Made by a program: the position numbers and the translations under genes
Source of the DNA: Microtetraspora sp. NBRC 13810
GTDB taxonomy: Bacteria; Actinomycetota; Actinomycetes; Streptosporangiales; Streptosporangiaceae
Direction: 5' to 3'
NCBI RefSeq assembly: GCF_030268685.1
Contig: NZ_BSRQ01000006.1
Span: 186,001-250,000 of the forward strand
Length of the DNA stretch: 64,000 bases
Shown: positions 9,020 through 43,300 of the stretch, in pieces
How the letters are laid out: every line of letters begins with the position of its first letter
How positions within the stretch are numbered: the stretch's first letter is position 1
The notes under the pieces: model-generated
What the model was told of the DNA's origin: nothing
Database searches by the model: none
The model's input: the letters and a program-made list of their open reading frames with translations, nothing else

Positions 9020-10459
9020 ATGAACGAGCTCAGCCGCGGCCGGCGTCTGCTCGTCCTCGCGATCTGCTGCATGAGCCTGTTCATCGTGGGTCTCGACAAC
9101 ACGATCGTCAACGTCGCGCTGCCGACCCTCGCCCGGGACCTGAACGCGCCGCTGTCCGGCCTGCAGTGGACCATCGACGCCTACACGCTGGTGCTGGCCG
9201 CCCTGCTGATGCTGGCCGGCTCGACCGGGGACAGGATCGGCCGGCGGCGCACCTTCCAGACCGGGCTCGTGGTGTTCTCCCTCGGCTCACTGCTGTGCAG
9301 CATGGCCCCCAGCCTCGGCTGGCTGGTGGTGTTCCGGATGATCCAGGCCGTCGGCGGCTCGATGCTCAACCCGGTGGCCATGTCGATCATCACGAACACG
9401 TTCACCGCGCCCAAGGAGCGGGCCAGGGCGATCGGGGTCTGGGGGGCGGTCGCCGGGCTCAGCATGGCGGCGGGGCCGCTGATCGGCGGGCTCCTGGTGG
9501 AACCGGTGGGCTGGCGGTCGATCTTCTGGATCAACGTGCCGATCGGGATCGCGGCGATCGTGCTCACCGCGCTGTTCGTGCCCGAGTCCAAGGCCGCCCG
9601 GCCGCGCCGGATCGACCCGGTCGGGCAACTGCTCATCGCGCTGCTGCTGGGCACCGTGACGTTCGGCATCATCGAGGGCCCGAACGCGGGATGGGCCTCG
9701 CCGCCGATCCTGGGCTGCTTCGCCGCCGCCGTCGCCGTGCTGGCCGCCCTGCTCTACTACGAGCCACGCCGCGAGGAACCGCTGATCGACCTGCGCTTCT
9801 TCCGCAGCGCGCCGTTCACCGGCGCCGCCGTGATCGCGATCAGCGCCTTCGCCGCGACCGGCGGGTTCCTCTTCCTCAACACGCTCTACCTGCAGAACGA
9901 GCGCGGCCTCACGCCGCTGGCCGCCGGGCTGTGCACGCTGCCGACCGCGCTGACGTCGCTGGTGGTCTCGCCGCTGTCCGGCCGGCTCGTCGCGGCGCGC
10001 GGCCCGCGGCCCTCGCTGGTGGTCGCCGGGGTGGCCTTCACCGTGGCGGGCGTGCTCCTCACGCTGGTGACGCGGCAGACCCCGCTGACCGGGCTCCTCG
10101 CGATCTACGCCGTCTTCGGGATCGGCCTCGGCGCGGTGAACGCGCCGATCACCAACACCGCCGTGTCCGGCATGCCGCGCGCGCAGGCGGGCGTCGCCGC
10201 CGCGATCGCCTCCACCAGCCGTCAGACCGGCCAGGCCCTCGGCGTGGCGATCTCCGGCTCGGTGGTGGCCTCCGGCCTGGCCGGCGGGCTGGGCGCCGGC
10301 TTCATGCAGGCCGGGCATGCGGGGTGGCGGGTCATCGCGGGGTACGGTCTCATTGTGCTGATCGTCGGCCTGGCCACCACCGGCCGATGGGCCCGCCGTA
10401 CGGCCGACCGGGTCACGGCGGGCTTCGCCCCCGAGGAGGCGAAGGCGGGAGTGAGATGA
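9020..10459 (+). CDS. Multidrug exporter, MFS DHA2 (EmrB/QacA) family
   Basis: This 479-residue protein has 14 predicted membrane helices. Motifs are FIVGLDNTIVNVALPTLARDL in helix 1 (the DHA2 motif LDxTIVNVALP), the loop motif GSTGDRIGRRRTF, and the exporter motif C region GLSMAAGPLIGGLL in helix 5. The family expels lipophilic drugs or natural products in exchange for protons. The start is the ATG at 9020, after GGGAGCACCC; an in-frame TTG at 9005 falls inside the operator. It overlaps the MarR gene by ATGA, so drug efflux and its repressor are made together. Confidence 0.92.
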   Translation: MNELSRGRRLLVLAICCMSLFIVGLDNTIVNVALPTLARDLNAPLSGLQWTIDAYTLVLAALLMLAGSTGDRIGRRRTFQTGLVVFSLGSLLCSMAPSLGWLVVFRMIQAVGGSMLNPVAMSIITNTFTAPKERARAIGVWGAVAGLSMAAGPLIGGLLVEPVGWRSIFWINVPIGIAAIVLTALFVPESKAARPRRIDPVGQLLIALLLGTVTFGIIEGPNAGWASPPILGCFAAAVAVLAALLYYEPRREEPLIDLRFFRSAPFTGAAVIAISAFAATGGFLFLNTLYLQNERGLTPLAAGLCTLPTALTSLVVSPLSGRLVAARGPRPSLVVAGVAFTVAGVLLTLVTRQTPLTGLLAIYAVFGIGLGAVNAPITNTAVSGMPRAQAGVAAAIASTSRQTGQALGVAISGSVVASGLAGGLGAGFMQAGHAGWRVIAGYGLIVLIVGLATTGRWARRTADRVTAGFAPEEAKAGVR

Positions 10460-33525: not shown

Positions 33526-35868
33526 TCAGTCGAGGGGCGGGTAGGCGTTCTGCAGCAGCTCACGGAACTGCGCGGAGAACCACTGGCCGGAGATCGGGGC
33601 GTTCGGCAGCGCGCCGGAGGGGTTGTTGCCGTTGCGCTCGTTACCGGTGTAGGTCGGGTCGCACATCCGGTCGAAGCCCTTGCCCTCGTCGTTCTCGATG
33701 AACTGGCTGGAACCGTCGGACTCGCCCGGCGGCTTGACCCAGACGTAGGCGTCGATGCCGGTGGCCGGGTTGGCCCTGGGCCGCTCGCCGAGACCCGCGC
33801 CGCTCTGGTTGCACCAGTTGCCGGCGTGGATCCGGCGGTCGATCCTGGACTGGTTGACGAAGGTGTTCACGTCGGTCGAGGTGCTGGGACCGGACGGCCG
33901 CGCCGAGCCGCCCCACCCGTTGCGGGAGGTGTCGATCAGCATGCCGATGCTGTCGGGGAAGCCCGCCTGGATGAGCCGGGTGCGCATCGCCTGGGCGTAG
34001 CTCAGCTCGTCGACGTAGAAGTTCCAGTCGATCCAGCGCGCCTGGCGCACCGAGGTGCCGTTGACGTTGGTGTTGACGGTGAAGTGCGGCTCGGTGAGCG
34101 CCGAGTAGTTGGCCGTGTTCGTGATGAAGCCGTCCACGCTGGCCTTGCCCGCCGTGGTGCCGTCGGCCGTGCTGGCGAACAGGTTGGCCGCCGGGCCGAA
34201 GTTGGTGTCCCAGCCCAGCCAGCCGTGGTGCGCGGCGTCGACGTAGGTGTAGACGTTCGGGATCGCGTGCAGCTTGTTCAGCGCGTGCTGGACGCCCTGG
34301 ACGTAGGCGCCGGTCTGCTGCGCCTCCTGGCACTTCGGCACGTTGAGGTTGGTGACGAGGTTGGGCAGCGAGTCGATCTCGATGATGGTCACGATGCGCA
34401 GGTTCGCGTACTGCGGGTCGTCCAGGATCGCGGCGATCACGTCGACGTACTCGGTCTTGTAGCGGTTGAGACCGTTCTGCGCGATGAGCAGCTCGCCGTT
34501 GGAGGCCAGGGCCGAGCAGTCGCGGTTGGGCAGGTTGTAGATGACGACCTGGATGGTCAGCGGGGTGGCGCCGTTGGCCGCGTCCTGCTCGACCGCCTCG
34601 TCCAGGTGGTCGCGCAGGCCCATCGCCGAGCCGGGGCCCTCGATGGCGGCGATCCGGTCCATCCAGACGGCGGTGGACAGGTCCGCGACCGCGTCGCCGC
34701 CGGGCTCGGCGGCGGCCTTGGCCGACCAGTCCGGGTTCACGTAGCCCGCGGCCCCGGCGTAGGGGTTGTTCACGTGCCCGGAGCCGTTGCCGCCGTCGTC
34801 GTCGGCCTCGGTGGCGGCCACCGCGACCGAGGTCAGACCCGACGAGGACACGTTGATCGTCCGCGTCCCGTTCGCGCTGTCCGCGTCCTGCGCCGCCGAC
34901 ACCGTCACATTCTGCGCCGTGTTCCAGTTCGCCGAGGTGAACGTCAGACTCGCACCACCGGTCACCGTCAGATTCGCGTCACCACCACTCGCCGCGGCCG
35001 ACGACACCGTCACGTTCCCGGCCGGCTGGATGGCCAGCCGCACGCCGAAGGTGGCCGTCGAGCCCTCGGGCACGCTCAGGCTGGTCGGGGAGACGACGAG
35101 GGCCTGCGTGCCGGTCGAGCCGTCGTCGTCGGCCTCGGTGGCGGCCACCGCGACCGAGGTCAGACCCGACGAGGACACGTTGATCGTCCGCGTCCCGTTC
35201 GCGCTGTCCGCGTCCTGCGCCGCCGACACCGTCACATTCTGCGCCGTGTTCCAGTTCGCCGGCGTGAACGTCAGACTCGCACCACCGGTCACCGTCAGAT
35301 TCGCGTCACCACCACTCGCCGCGGCCGACGACACCGTCACGTTCCCGGCCGGCTGGGCGGCCAGCCGTACGGCGTAGGTGGCGGAGCCGCCCTCGGGGAC
35401 GCTGATCGAGGTGGGCGTGACGACCAGGGACTGCGTGGGGCCGGGGGGCTGCCCGGTGCAGGCGGTGCCGTTGATCGAGAAGCTGGTCGGGTTGGCGTTG
35501 GTGCCGGTGAAGGTGCCGTTGAAGCCGATGCTCCACTGGGCGCCGGTGGCCTGGGCGCCGTTCCACGGGAGGTTGGCCGCGGTGACGTTCGCGCCCGACT
35601 GGGACCACGTGGCGTTCCAGCCCTGGGAGACCTGCTGGCCGCCGGGGAAGGCGTAAGTGAGCGACCAGGTGGTGAGCGGGTCGCCGAGGTTGCGGATCGT
35701 GATGTTCCCGCCGAACCCGTTGCCGCCCTCCCACGCCTTGGCGTAGGTGACCTCGCAAGCGACAGCGGCGCTGGCCGGGGTCGGGCCGGCCACGAGGCCG
35801 ACCACGGCGAGCAGTGCGGCCACTGCTCCCGTCAGCCCCCTGCGCCAGAAGCTCTTGTGGGGTTTCAT
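33526..35868 (-). CDS. Secreted GH6 cellulase with CBM2 and two Calx-beta-like modules
   Basis: This 780-residue protein is built as follows: signal peptide (1-34, cleavage after PASA), CBM2 cellulose-binding module (about 36-137, bounded by Cys, with conserved Trp), two almost identical 109-residue-period modules (about 145-250 and 255-360; VTVSSAAASGGDANLTVTGGASL type, DD-rich ends like Calx-beta), and a GH6 catalytic domain (about 370-780). GH6 marks are IYNLPNRDCSA with its catalytic Asp, IIEIDSLPNLV, and WVKPPGESDG near the end. It is probably a cellobiohydrolase or endoglucanase acting on cellulose outside the cell. A CelR operator lies upstream. Confidence 0.94.
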   Translation of the reverse strand: MKPHKSFWRRGLTGAVAALLAVVGLVAGPTPASAAVACEVTYAKAWEGGNGFGGNITIRNLGDPLTTWSLTYAFPGGQQVSQGWNATWSQSGANVTAANLPWNGAQATGAQWSIGFNGTFTGTNANPTSFSINGTACTGQPPGPTQSLVVTPTSISVPEGGSATYAVRLAAQPAGNVTVSSAAASGGDANLTVTGGASLTFTPANWNTAQNVTVSAAQDADSANGTRTINVSSSGLTSVAVAATEADDDGSTGTQALVVSPTSLSVPEGSTATFGVRLAIQPAGNVTVSSAAASGGDANLTVTGGASLTFTSANWNTAQNVTVSAAQDADSANGTRTINVSSSGLTSVAVAATEADDDGGNGSGHVNNPYAGAAGYVNPDWSAKAAAEPGGDAVADLSTAVWMDRIAAIEGPGSAMGLRDHLDEAVEQDAANGATPLTIQVVIYNLPNRDCSALASNGELLIAQNGLNRYKTEYVDVIAAILDDPQYANLRIVTIIEIDSLPNLVTNLNVPKCQEAQQTGAYVQGVQHALNKLHAIPNVYTYVDAAHHGWLGWDTNFGPAANLFASTADGTTAGKASVDGFITNTANYSALTEPHFTVNTNVNGTSVRQARWIDWNFYVDELSYAQAMRTRLIQAGFPDSIGMLIDTSRNGWGGSARPSGPSTSTDVNTFVNQSRIDRRIHAGNWCNQSGAGLGERPRANPATGIDAYVWVKPPGESDGSSQFIENDEGKGFDRMCDPTYTGNERNGNNPSGALPNAPISGQWFSAQFRELLQNAYPPLD
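34792..35367. repeat. Near-perfect 249-bp direct repeat within the cellulase gene
   Basis: 34792-35040 and 35119-35367 match at about 245 of 249 positions by eye, offset 327 bp. They encode the two linker modules of the cellulase. The identity extends to synonymous positions, so the duplication is recent or kept uniform by gene conversion. Confidence 0.85.
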
Positions 35869-37348: not shown

Positions 37349-37636
37349 TCAGACCCCCGCCCTCGACGGCATCCGCTGTGCTCCCTGATCGGCGTACATG
37401 TCGGGCTCCTGCTCTGCTTCCCGGTGGGTCTCCTCCATGCGCAACGCCACCCCCATGGCGAAGAACGTCGGCGCCCATTCGCCGATGAAGATCCCCCACC
37501 GGTCGGCCCTGTCGACCCCGGCGTTCTCCGCCTTGGCCGACATCAGCCAGGACGCGACCGACAGGCCGATGGAGGCGATCCCGGCGGTGTACATGACTCC
37601 GGAGCGTACGCCCATCTTGTGGAGCATTCGGATCAT
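37349..37636 (-). CDS. Small membrane-associated hypothetical protein
   Basis: This 95-residue protein, MIRMLHKMGVRSGVMYT..., has a hydrophobic helix at about 15-32 and a second hydrophobic region at about 45-66 (WGIFIGEWAPTFFAMGVAL), then an acidic and polar tail. An AGGGGGATGAA site lies before ATG 37636, which supports expression. It resembles short actinobacterial two-helix proteins of unknown function (FIGEWAP...MG pattern). The flanking genes (Clp_N protein upstream, TerC downstream) do not fix a role. Confidence 0.7.
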   Translation of the reverse strand: MIRMLHKMGVRSGVMYTAGIASIGLSVASWLMSAKAENAGVDRADRWGIFIGEWAPTFFAMGVALRMEETHREAEQEPDMYADQGAQRMPSRAGV

Positions 37637-37720: not shown

Positions 37721-38422
37721 TCACTCGGCGGCCAGCCACGCCACGACCCGCTCCCTGGTGACGCCCAGCCCGGCGAGGATCCGGGCGCCCGTCCCCTCCT
37801 CCTCGCCGAGGACGCCCAGCAGGATGTGCTCGGTCCCGATGTGCTCGTCGCCCATCCGCAGCGACTCCCGGATGGTGAGCTCCAGCACCTTCCGGGCGCC
37901 GGAGGTGAAGGCGATGTGGTCGCCGACCTCCTCGGCGGGCGGGCCGAGGACGGCGGCGACCGCGCCGCGCAGCATGTCGGGGGTGACGCCCAGCGCCCGG
38001 ATCGCCCTGACCGCCGGCGCGTCCGGCTCGCACAGCAGCCCGAGCAGCACGTGCTCGGTGCCGATGTGGTCGTGCCGGGCTCCGCGCGCCTCGCCCTGGG
38101 CCTGCACCACCACGTGCCGGGCCTGGTCGGTGAAACGGGCCCACACGCCGCCGTGGAAGAGCTCCCGCTCGTCCGGCCGGTTGGTCACGAACCGCTTCTG
38201 GGCCGCCTGCTTGCTCACCCCCATGCTCTGGCCGATCTCGGTCCACGAGGCGCCCGCCCTGCGCGCCTGGTCCACGAAGTGGCCGATGAGATGGTCGGCC
38301 AGCTCGCCGAGCTGCTCGCCGGCGAGGACGGCGTCCGACAGGTGCTCCAGCGCGCCGCCGCCGGGATGCCGGGTCTTGACGTAGTCGATCAGGTCGTCGA
38401 GCCGTGCGGGAAGGATGTCCAT
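37721..38422 (-). CDS. Clp_N-domain protein with helix-turn-helix, probably autoregulatory
   Basis: In this 233-residue protein, residues 1-75 form a helical domain with a helix-turn-helix, ASWTEIGQSMGVSKQAAQKRF. Residues 85-230 contain two Clp_N repeats (HIGTEHVLLGLL and HIGTEHILLGVL motifs), the substrate-adaptor fold of ClpA/ClpC, but no ATPase. Such proteins occur widely in actinobacteria and may act as a stress-linked regulator or Clp adaptor. Its promoter carries two copies of a palindrome, and the mRNA appears leaderless. Autoregulation through the HTH is inference. Confidence 0.85.
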   Translation of the reverse strand: MDILPARLDDLIDYVKTRHPGGGALEHLSDAVLAGEQLGELADHLIGHFVDQARRAGASWTEIGQSMGVSKQAAQKRFVTNRPDERELFHGGVWARFTDQARHVVVQAQGEARGARHDHIGTEHVLLGLLCEPDAPAVRAIRALGVTPDMLRGAVAAVLGPPAEEVGDHIAFTSGARKVLELTIRESLRMGDEHIGTEHILLGVLGEEEGTGARILAGLGVTRERVVAWLAAE

Positions 38423-38423
38423 G

Positions 38424-38471
38424 CGTCAACCATAGGTTGACGATAGGACCTGCGTCAACTCACGGTTGACG
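38424..38471 (-). promoter_or_regulatory. Two operators overlapping a leaderless promoter of the Clp_N gene
   Basis: Site 1 (38424-38442) is CGTCAACC-ATA-GGTTGACG, perfect. Site 2 (38453-38471) is CGTCAAC-TCACG-GTTGACG. Their centres are 29 bp apart. On the minus strand site 2 supplies a -35 (TTGACG) and site 1 a -10 (TATGGT) 18 bp downstream, only 6 nt before ATG 38422. Repressor binding would cover the whole promoter. Confidence 0.7.
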
Positions 38472-41460: not shown

Positions 41461-41628
41461 AACGGCGATTTGTTTTTACCCACCCCACAAGGGCGTTCCA
41501 GTGAAAGGTTAAACCCGGCGCCAACAAGGTGGAAATGGAGACCAAGAAAAGCAACGTCCCTGTTTACGGGCGTACCCAGCGGAAATTCACCAGCCGTGTC
41601 GTCGCAGCAGGACTGCCTGCGGAATACA
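41461..41628. promoter_or_regulatory. Promoter region of the hopanoid operon
   Basis: 168 bp of relatively AT-rich DNA (e.g. GAAACGGCGATTTGTTTTTACCC at 41459-41481 and AAAGGTTAAACC at 41503-41514) separate the deacetylase from hpnC. The only plausible ribosome binding site for hpnC is GCGGAATACA before ATG 41629. No clear palindromic operator was seen. Confidence 0.4.
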
Positions 41629-42438
41629 ATGTCGAAGGCCGGCCGGGAGAATTTCCCGGTCGCCTCGCGGCTGCTGCCACGGCGTTATCGCAGAGACCTT
41701 CTCGCCATCTACGGTTTCGCGCGCTCGGTTGACGACATAGGCGACGACACCCCGCCGCGCGAGCGCCTGGCGCTGCTGGAGGCGGTCGACACCGACCTGG
41801 TCCGCCTGTACGCCGGGCGCAGTCCCCGCTCGTGGGCGGTCGAGGGGCTGACCCGCACCATCCGGGAGCACGCGATCCCGGCCGAGCCCTTCCATCTCCT
41901 CGTCGAGGCCAACCGGCGCGACCAGACGGTGACGCGTTACGAGACGTTCGACGACCTGCTCGGCTACTGCGCGCTGTCGGCGAACCCGGTGGGCCGTCTT
42001 GTGCTGCACGTGTTCGGCGCGGTCACCGAGTCCCGGCTCGCGTCGTCGGACCGGGTGTGCTCCGCGTTGCAGATCATCGAGCACTGCCAGGACGTCGGCG
42101 AGGACCTCGGGCGCGGCCGGATCTACCTGCCCGGCGAGGATCTGCGGCGGTTCGGCTGCCCGGAGGACCACCTCGCGGCCCCCGTGACGTCGCCGCAACT
42201 GCGCGACGTGCTGGCGTTCCAGGTCTCGCGGGCCGAGCGGATGCTCGCCGAGGGGTCCGGGCTGATCGCTTCACTGGCCGGTTTCGCCCGTCTCGCGGTG
42301 GCCGGTTACGTCGCCGGCGGGCACGCCACCGTGACCGCGCTGAAGCACGCGCGGCACGACGTCCTGGGCCAGGCGGTGCGACCGCGCCGCGCCAGGCTGC
42401 TCACCGCCTGGGCGCGCATTCTCATGACGAAGGAGTGA
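41629..42438 (+). CDS. hpnC: Squalene synthase subunit HpnC (hydroxysqualene synthase)
   Basis: This 269-residue trans-isoprenyl diphosphate synthase-like protein starts ENFPVASRLLPRRYRRDLLAIYGFARSVDDIGDD, with the first Asp-rich motif DDIGD. The second is HCQDVGEDLGRGRIYLPGEDL. In the three-enzyme HpnCDE route, HpnD joins two farnesyl diphosphates to presqualene diphosphate, HpnC converts this to hydroxysqualene and HpnE reduces that to squalene. It is the first gene of the operon. ATG 41629 is chosen; a GTG at 41596 is possible. Confidence 0.95.
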   Translation: MSKAGRENFPVASRLLPRRYRRDLLAIYGFARSVDDIGDDTPPRERLALLEAVDTDLVRLYAGRSPRSWAVEGLTRTIREHAIPAEPFHLLVEANRRDQTVTRYETFDDLLGYCALSANPVGRLVLHVFGAVTESRLASSDRVCSALQIIEHCQDVGEDLGRGRIYLPGEDLRRFGCPEDHLAAPVTSPQLRDVLAFQVSRAERMLAEGSGLIASLAGFARLAVAGYVAGGHATVTALKHARHDVLGQAVRPRRARLLTAWARILMTKE

Positions 42439-42442
42439 CCAG

Positions 42443-43300
42443 GTGACGGTGTCCGACGCGTACCGGGTGTGCGAGCGGGTCGTCCGCTCCCGCGCGCGGA
42501 ACTTCTCCTACGGCATCCGGCTCCTGCCACCGCCCAAACGCCGTGCCCTCAGCGCCGTCTACGCCTTCGCCCGCCGGGTCGACGACATCGGCGACGGCCA
42601 CGGACCGGCCGCCGAGCGGCTGATCGACCTGGGCAGGATGCGCGCCGCGTTGCAGGCGCCGCACGAGGAGCCCGGCGACCCCGTCCTGATCGCGCTGGCG
42701 GACGCGGCCGGCCGTTACCCGATCCCGCTGGCCGCCTTCAACGAGCTGATCGAGGGCTGCACGGCGGACGTTCGCGGCGCCGACTACGAACGCTACGACC
42801 AGTTGCTGACCTACTGCCGCTGTGTCGCCGGGTCCATCGGCCGGCTGTCCCTCGGCGTCTTCGGCAGCGAGGATCCCAAGACGGCCGAACCGCTGGCCGA
42901 CTCCCTCGGCGTGGCCCTGCAACTGACGAACATCCTGCGTGACGTGCGGGAGGACCGCACGTCCGGGCGGGTCTACCTGCCGGCCGAGGACCTGGACAGG
43001 TTCGGCTGCACGCTGCGGATCGACGGCGACGGCAGGTTCACCGACCCGCCGGACCGGCTCGGCCGCCTCATCCGCTTCCAGGCCGAACGCGCCGACGCCT
43101 GGTACGCCGACGGCATCCGGCTGCTGCCGCACCTCGACCGGCGCAGCGCCGCCTGCACCGCGGCCATGGCCGGCATCTACCGGCGCCTGCTGCACCGCAT
43201 CGCCGCCAGGCCCGCCGAGGCCCTGGCCGCCCGGTCGTCGCTGCCGGGCTGGGAGAAGGCGCTGGTGGCCGCCGGCGCGCTCGCCGGGGTGAGCCGGTGA
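42443..43300 (+). CDS. hpnD: Presqualene diphosphate synthase HpnD
   Basis: This 285-residue protein has RVVRSRARNFSYGIRLLPPPKRRALSAVYAFARRVDDIGDG with the DDIGD motif, Tyr/Arg-rich substrate-binding segments, and the second Asp motif LTNILRDVREDRTSGRVYLPAEDL. It condenses two farnesyl diphosphates head to head to presqualene diphosphate. It starts at GTG 42443, 4 bp after hpnC with AGGAGTGACCAG before it, and overlaps hpnE by GTGA. Confidence 0.96.
   Translation: MTVSDAYRVCERVVRSRARNFSYGIRLLPPPKRRALSAVYAFARRVDDIGDGHGPAAERLIDLGRMRAALQAPHEEPGDPVLIALADAAGRYPIPLAAFNELIEGCTADVRGADYERYDQLLTYCRCVAGSIGRLSLGVFGSEDPKTAEPLADSLGVALQLTNILRDVREDRTSGRVYLPAEDLDRFGCTLRIDGDGRFTDPPDRLGRLIRFQAERADAWYADGIRLLPHLDRRSAACTAAMAGIYRRLLHRIAARPAEALAARSSLPGWEKALVAAGALAGVSR

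Follow-up and report, generated by a model that had tools for sequence, protein, structure and literature searches.

What governs a gene whose promoter carries two palindromes of the same form and whose product joins a candidate DNA-reading head to a Clp_N domain? The question is raised by a locus of Microtetraspora sp. NBRC 13810 (Streptosporangiaceae) within a stretch of 64,000 nucleotides, hereafter the window (positions 186,001 to 250,000 of contig NZ_BSRQ01000006.1, assembly GCF_030268685.1; C6:186001-250000 of genome G000 in our numbering). Judged from its sequence, the gene is an orthologue of mycobacterial clpC2 and a predicted autorepressor, that is, a further member of a published kind. 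We consider it very probable that clpC2 represses itself through the twin operator and that release by a ligand yields a decoy, the helix-turn-helix (HTH) reading the DNA and the Clp domain sensing.

Both palindromes conform to CGTCAAC-N5-GTTGACG without a mismatch, and their centres lie 29 bp apart. The twin sites, the −35 and −10 hexamers and the distance to the start codon had been described in an earlier sequence-only reading of this DNA, and all were confirmed as exact (Table 1); the leaderless promoter that it had proposed is matched by position. With up to two mismatches allowed, the motif was found three times in the window against 0.29 expected, a number reached in none of 100 shuffles; the third match, at 9106, has two mismatches. 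In the whole 9-Mb genome (8,966,475 bases, 114 contigs), the exact form is confined to the two clpC2 sites, and at up to two mismatches the motif had 81 places compared with 34 for a control read backwards.

Table 1. Features of the clpC2 locus, in window positions
Feature	Position	Strand	Description and basis
clpC2 orthologue, 233 aa	37721-38422	minus	ATG at 38422, leaderless by position; open reading frame (ORF), Pfam Clp_N, PDB relatives ClpC1/ClpC2
Helix-turn-helix region	38186-38299	minus	Residues 42-79, recognition helix about 70-79; column conservation, AlphaFold helices, end of 8ADA
ClpC-type N domain, two Clp_N repeats	37739-38146	minus	Residues 93-228; Pfam, PDB matches, alignments
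Proximal operator CGTCAAC-CTATG-GTTGACG	38424-38442	minus	−10 inside; position same in homologues
Distal operator CGTCAAC-CGTGA-GTTGACG	38453-38471	minus	Inner half = −35; homologues agree
−35 hexamer TTGACG	38453-38458	minus	Read from the sequence
−10 hexamer TATGGT	38429-38434	minus	18-nt spacer to −35; 6 nt to ATG

In the window protein, Pfam detected Clp_N (1e-27) in two stretches, and the scores of its HTH models all remained below threshold; on a homologous protein encoded by a split gene (below), HTH_23 exceeded its cut-off (25.9 vs 24.6 bits). An AlphaFold model built from a 32-row alignment (mean predicted local distance difference test score, pLDDT, 87.9) places helices at residues 40-55, 60-67 and 71-78, which form an HTH, and a flexible linker at residues 80-87 (pLDDT <50) between the HTH and the Clp domain. 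The HTH of the sequence-only reading is thereby supported, and its two Clp_N repeats proved to be together one ClpC-type N domain. A phmmer search matched the crystallized N domain of Rv2667 (8ADA) to residues 4-69 (E 3.8e-23), and residues 91-230 were matched by ClpC1 and ClpC2 N domains in the PDB. The top PDB matches in Foldseek were ClpC1 N domains, several of them in complex with cyclomarin, ecumicin, rufomycin or lassomycin. At the ClpC1 pocket positions F2, F80 and E89, the window protein has W94, F172 and E181, respectively. It stops at 233 aa and contains no AAA+ modules, and its nearest homologue with an organism name, from a Streptosporangiales metagenome-assembled genome, is 65% identical.

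The published counterpart is mycobacterial ClpC2 (Rv2667, MSMEG_2792), which was shown in 2023 to repress its own gene (PMC10030653). Its operator, CGTCAAC-n5-GTTGACG, lies 1-2 nt before the ORF, is duplicated in many actinobacteria and overlaps the −35 and −10 elements, and the transcripts were suggested to be leaderless; binding of cyclomarin A lifts the repression, and ClpC2 then acts as a sponge (PMC10030653). According to a 2026 paper, the binding of ClpC2 to ilamycin and ecumicin is weaker than to cyclomarin, and neither compound induces it (PMC12913811). The mycobacterial and window proteins share the domain order, the operator sequence, the presumed leaderless start, both C-terminal-domain arginines (the equivalents of R185 and R189) and the lack of AAA+ modules, and the operator is present in two copies, as in M. 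smegmatis. The operator, its copy number, its distance from the ATG and the leaderlessness match the published description (PMC10030653), and we assign the window gene to ClpC2. The proposal of a self-repressing regulator with a Clp_N ligand sensor is supported, mycobacterial ClpC2 having been demonstrated to be just such a protein; we reject the view that such a sensor on a transcription factor is unprecedented, since the kind is known from mycobacteria (PMC10030653). Unlike its mycobacterial counterpart, the window protein comes from a different actinobacterial family and has W94 at the F2 position. The ClpC1 N domain resembles it in fold and ligand pocket, whereas ClpC1 itself has an AAA+ unfoldase part and no HTH.

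The operator is also conserved upstream of homologues, as the sequence-only reading would require. Fused homologues were collected by genome and contig searches, as best-scoring loci and not by random draw, and the DNA upstream of them was scanned; 50 of the 53 distinct fused loci carry two exact gap-7 sites (GTCAA-N7-TTGAC), two carry one and one carries none that is exact. Although gaps of 2-13 were allowed, the gap was 7 at 102/102 exact sites, and the twin sites were 28 or 29 bp apart in 49 loci and 23 bp apart in one. Of the genomes of 60 relatives, 18 have the gap-7 twin pattern, at a single place each and each time upstream of the fused gene. The fused gene itself (at least 40% identity, alignment start no later than query residue 8) was found in 20 of the 60; the exact twin is present in 18 of these 20 (G052 has a 23-bp spacing and G035 one site) and in none of the 40 others (Fisher p 2e-13).

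In the mechanism that we propose, a ClpC2 dimer would occupy both palindromes, covering the −35 and −10 elements of the leaderless promoter and keeping expression low. The signal would be a peptide-like ligand, one that attacks the essential unfoldase ClpC1 as well; once it filled the Clp_N pocket, the repressor would leave. From the freed promoter, ClpC2 would accumulate and, acting as a decoy, capture the ligand. The HTH would read the operator, and the Clp domain, besides sensing the ligand, may add DNA contacts. Some observations count against this mechanism. The canonical twin operator was absent at three divergent fused loci (L142-L144; genomes G015, G025 and G038) and at a short ClpC2-like HTH frame (L139, G002), none of which is among the 53 fused loci counted. 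Additionally, in 32 fused proteins (the window's included), the cyclomarin contacts F2, F80 and E89 are F in 29, F in 20 and E in 24, respectively; with W94 in place of the key contact F2, cyclomarin may therefore not be the ligand of the window protein.

The host genome additionally encodes a paralogue in which the two parts are separate genes (L005, positions 1156-2100 of G000:C5, minus strand). A 77-aa HTH gene is followed by a 182-aa Clp_N gene at a stop-to-start distance of 3 nt (TGA-CCG-ATG), and two GTCAA-N6-TTGAC palindromes stand in front. An ABC transporter-like frame lies divergently on the other side of this operon (L297). A profile made from seven split HTH sequences and one of a third class (class III, below) matched 264/394 genomes of the class and 144/150 of the family at E 0.001, counts that may include HTHs of fused or other relatives. 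At 50/50 loci returned, the Clp_N match begins 2-28 nt past the first base of the HTH stop codon. Another 40 hand-chosen loci from many families of the class give the same HTH-then-Clp_N picture with six exceptions: L240 and L254 have no Clp_N, L238 and L239 are of the class III type, and in L245 and L253 Clp_N is 92 or 177 nt away. Leaving out L238-L240 and L254, we obtained 87 distinct split loci, in which 154 of the 155 exact sites have gap 6 and one has gap 12; at least two sites, mostly 27-28 bp apart, are present in 68 loci, one in 17 and none in two. Exact pairs with any other gap number just three in 479,217 bases of fused and split loci. In a profile comparison, fused residues 49-79 aligned with split residues 37-67 (probability 96.8).

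The third class combines an HTH ending in KRLIAAGVxLRRR with a divergent Clp-like gene and has mirror-image sites, GCAA-N6-TTGAC followed by GTCAA-N6-TTGC; of the 21 loci, 16 have both and 20 have one or both. Its half-sites (L133, 1034-1780; L195-L214) read AGCAAC..GTTGACTA / TAGTCAAC..GTTGCT and make up one four-half-site palindrome. The cyclomarin pocket residues are absent from the 11 of 21 third-class Clp-like proteins that could be aligned, a loss that we regard as tentative. The host genome has all three classes, fused, split and class III, the last with one site (L133). NCBIfam gave nothing above cut-off on the split and class III proteins tried, and 4 of 72,556 plasmid records matched one split HTH.

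The gap-6 twin pattern was found in 99/150 family genomes and 124/394 class genomes, and its backwards control had no match throughout. None of the 14 family genomes without a good HTH match has the twin, compared with 99 of the 136 others (Fisher p 7e-8; a good match meant E better than 1e-14, a cut-off set after the data were seen). We inspected 54 loci, 30 returned by the search, 20 picked by hand and 4 from another search, which gave 52 distinct places after two repeats were removed. Twenty are HTH + Clp_N operons, four of them with a divergent ABC gene, and six are HTH + ABC exporter operons. A further 13 places front ABC exporters without an HTH, and five front lone Clp_N genes. DrrA-like ABC ATPases, DUF998 proteins and HTH genes with other neighbors account for two places each, as do two remaining targets, one of which is an FAD monooxygenase. 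Pfam annotation covered eight proteins, including six targets of gap-6 sites. The HTH + ABC exporter operons L279, L281, L282, L309, L310 and L311 have three palindromes evenly spaced at 27-28 bp. In the host genome, a gap-6 twin (L273, 1680-1770, G000:C9) lies directly after a UvrA-like gene and 23 nt ahead of the probable start of a gene for a DrrA-like ABC ATPase; the split regulator may here control a drug-export operon.

Taken as a whole, these sites suggest an actinobacterial family in which a small HTH head recognizes pairs of GTCAA-N(6 or 7)-TTGAC sites over leaderless promoters and is either joined to Clp_N in one protein (gap 7), encoded separately from it in a two-gene operon (gap 6) or combined with an ABC exporter (triple sites). 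The same gap-6 sites front separate exporters, lone Clp_N genes, DUF998 proteins and a monooxygenase, and would coordinate decoy and efflux against ClpC-attacking compounds, the reader in ClpC2 being the HTH. We regard this wider scheme as probable, with less assurance than the autorepression of clpC2. The split and exporter extension is a plausible variant family that we did not encounter in open-licence PubMed Central papers, where no description of a split HTH/Clp_N operon or of a Clp_N-exporter regulon appeared in the titles and abstract openings among the matches listed. Several points tell against the scheme. Fewer than two exact sites were present at 19/87 split loci, with none at L192 and L193; L240 and L254 are HTH-only loci at which neither a Clp_N neighbor nor a recognizable operator was found; and an exact twin is missing from 37/136 family genomes whose HTH match is better than 1e-14. 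The 20 hand-picked places mostly do not coincide with listed HTH matches, so that the shares of targets are not frequencies. Moreover, control of the exporters by an HTH of the ClpC2-like family is inferred from the shared motif, L308 looks like a chance match (13-nt spacer), and the N6 pattern also picks up GTCAAG-N4-CTTGAC pairs in some families. Such pairs, similarly spaced, occur in G099, G213, G173 and G081 and may belong to a different regulator.

Which domain of ClpC2 reads the DNA? The simplest reading would be that the N-terminal HTH, and not the Clp-like domain, contacts the half-sites and that the geometry of the dimer sets the gap of 7 or 6. We favor the HTH because it is far more invariant than the Clp domain (28/38 invariant columns at residues 42-79 vs 8/136, in 31 aligned fused proteins including the window's), because the AlphaFold model shows an HTH and the 8ADA crystal ends at ..SDIGKSMGV, the equivalent of residue 69 and just ahead of the recognition helix, and because split HTH-only genes and HTH + exporter operons keep the half-sites. 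The published model assigns DNA reading instead to the R185/R189 helix of the Clp-like domain and leaves the N-terminal domain just to dimerize. Its experimental grounds, which are also points against the HTH as reader, are that R185A/R189A weakened DNA binding in electrophoretic mobility shift assays and that the equivalent arginine mutant of M. smegmatis raised clpC2 mRNA 2.0-fold (PMC10030653). To these we must add that R185 is R in 32/32 and R189 in 31/32 fused proteins (the window's included). In the alignment of split Clp_N proteins, which covers 88 of 92 loci, 83 of the 88 have R at the R185 position, as does ClpC1. However, the R189 equivalent is R in only 16 of these 88, yet the operator half-site is unchanged; the pocket residues F2, F80 and E89 are kept in 84, 80 and 76 of them. 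The dimer mutant R57A in the N domain was derepressed 4.6-fold, more than the arginine mutant, and shift assays with dimer-deficient R57A and with the C-terminal domain alone supported the need for an N-domain dimer in high-affinity binding (PMC10030653). The six HTH + ABC exporter operons without an adjacent Clp_N gene keep palindromes of the same kind, although Clp_N genes elsewhere in these genomes are possible. We therefore consider the published model as written distinctly unlikely. Given the conservation of R185 and R189 in fused proteins and of R185 in split Clp_N, the Clp-like domain may still contribute; its arginines may help DNA binding or couple the ligand to release, and in split systems the domain perhaps contributes to binding as a separate chain.

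Two further explanations concern what the palindromes and the protein are for. Repeated TTGAC elements might simply make a strong promoter with no operator, since TTGAC is a good −35 element, occurs in each palindrome and is suitably placed in the distal one. The left half-sites GTCAA and the gap fixed at 7 or 6 have no role in a promoter, however, and on these grounds we reject this explanation as extremely improbable; the gap-6 twin counts in family and class genomes, with their empty control and the 0/14 family genomes without a good HTH match, also oppose it, as does the binding of mycobacterial ClpC2 to its own version of the sites (PMC10030653). Alternatively, the main role of ClpC2 might lie elsewhere, for example in acting as a holdase or in competing for the substrates or adaptors of ClpC1, and the sensing of drugs would then come second. 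Such roles were proposed in the published discussion and induction by heat stress was reported (PMC10030653), and the replacement of a cyclomarin-contacting F by W94 fits them. Nevertheless, cyclomarin raises mycobacterial clpC2 mRNA 263-fold and the heat induction was called milder (PMC10030653); a main role of this kind is in our view rather unlikely, and we retain ligand-relieved autorepression as the preferred account.

The window locus widens the known range of a drug-responsive repressor. If the reading from the split genes is true, it would correct which domain of ClpC2 reads DNA, provide a self-contained operator code (gap 6 vs 7) and predict many actinobacterial regulons in which Clp_N decoys and drug exporters respond to the same signal. 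Such regulons would be relevant to ClpC1-directed antibiotics and to Homo-BacPROTACs, whose efficacy is reported to be dampened by ClpC2 and ClpC3 (PMC10914731). M. smegmatis also has ClpC3, a small Clp protein that is induced along with ClpC2; the stand-alone Clp_N gene of the split operons may be its counterpart.

The HTH in ClpC2 is not new here, because the RelS-RelI paper had already noted it by HHpred (PMC13284704). A phmmer match to 9sdc (3.6e-5) relates the HTH region of the RelI antitoxin family (Rv2664) to the N-terminus of ClpC2; the partner of RelI is a RelE-like toxin, whereas that of the split HTH genes is Clp_N or an ABC exporter (for RelI, PMC13284704). We also considered the window protein as a RelI-type antitoxin, which would be a short HTH protein next to a RelS-like toxin, and dropped the idea: it has 233 aa with Clp_N, and the next gene on the same strand is a 95-aa ORF (window 37349-37636, minus) in which Pfam found no match. 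This ORF, which has hydrophobic stretches, begins 84 nt downstream of clpC2 and could be co-transcribed with it.

PADLOC gave no defence-system match on the four proteins tried. A search of 50,697 phage records with the window protein gave matches in 19, and in none of them did a place cover 80% of the protein. Mycobacteriophages Phabba (NC_054714.1) and Myrna (NC_011273.1) have Clp_N-like stretches 42-45% identical to the Clp domain of the window protein, which could be phage-made ClpC decoys or adaptors. Elsewhere in the window, inspection of translations by eye suggested a glycoside-hydrolase-like protein that would be secreted and has two nearly identical repeats (33526-35868, minus) and an adjoining pair of squalene/phytoene-synthase-like genes (41470-43300, plus).
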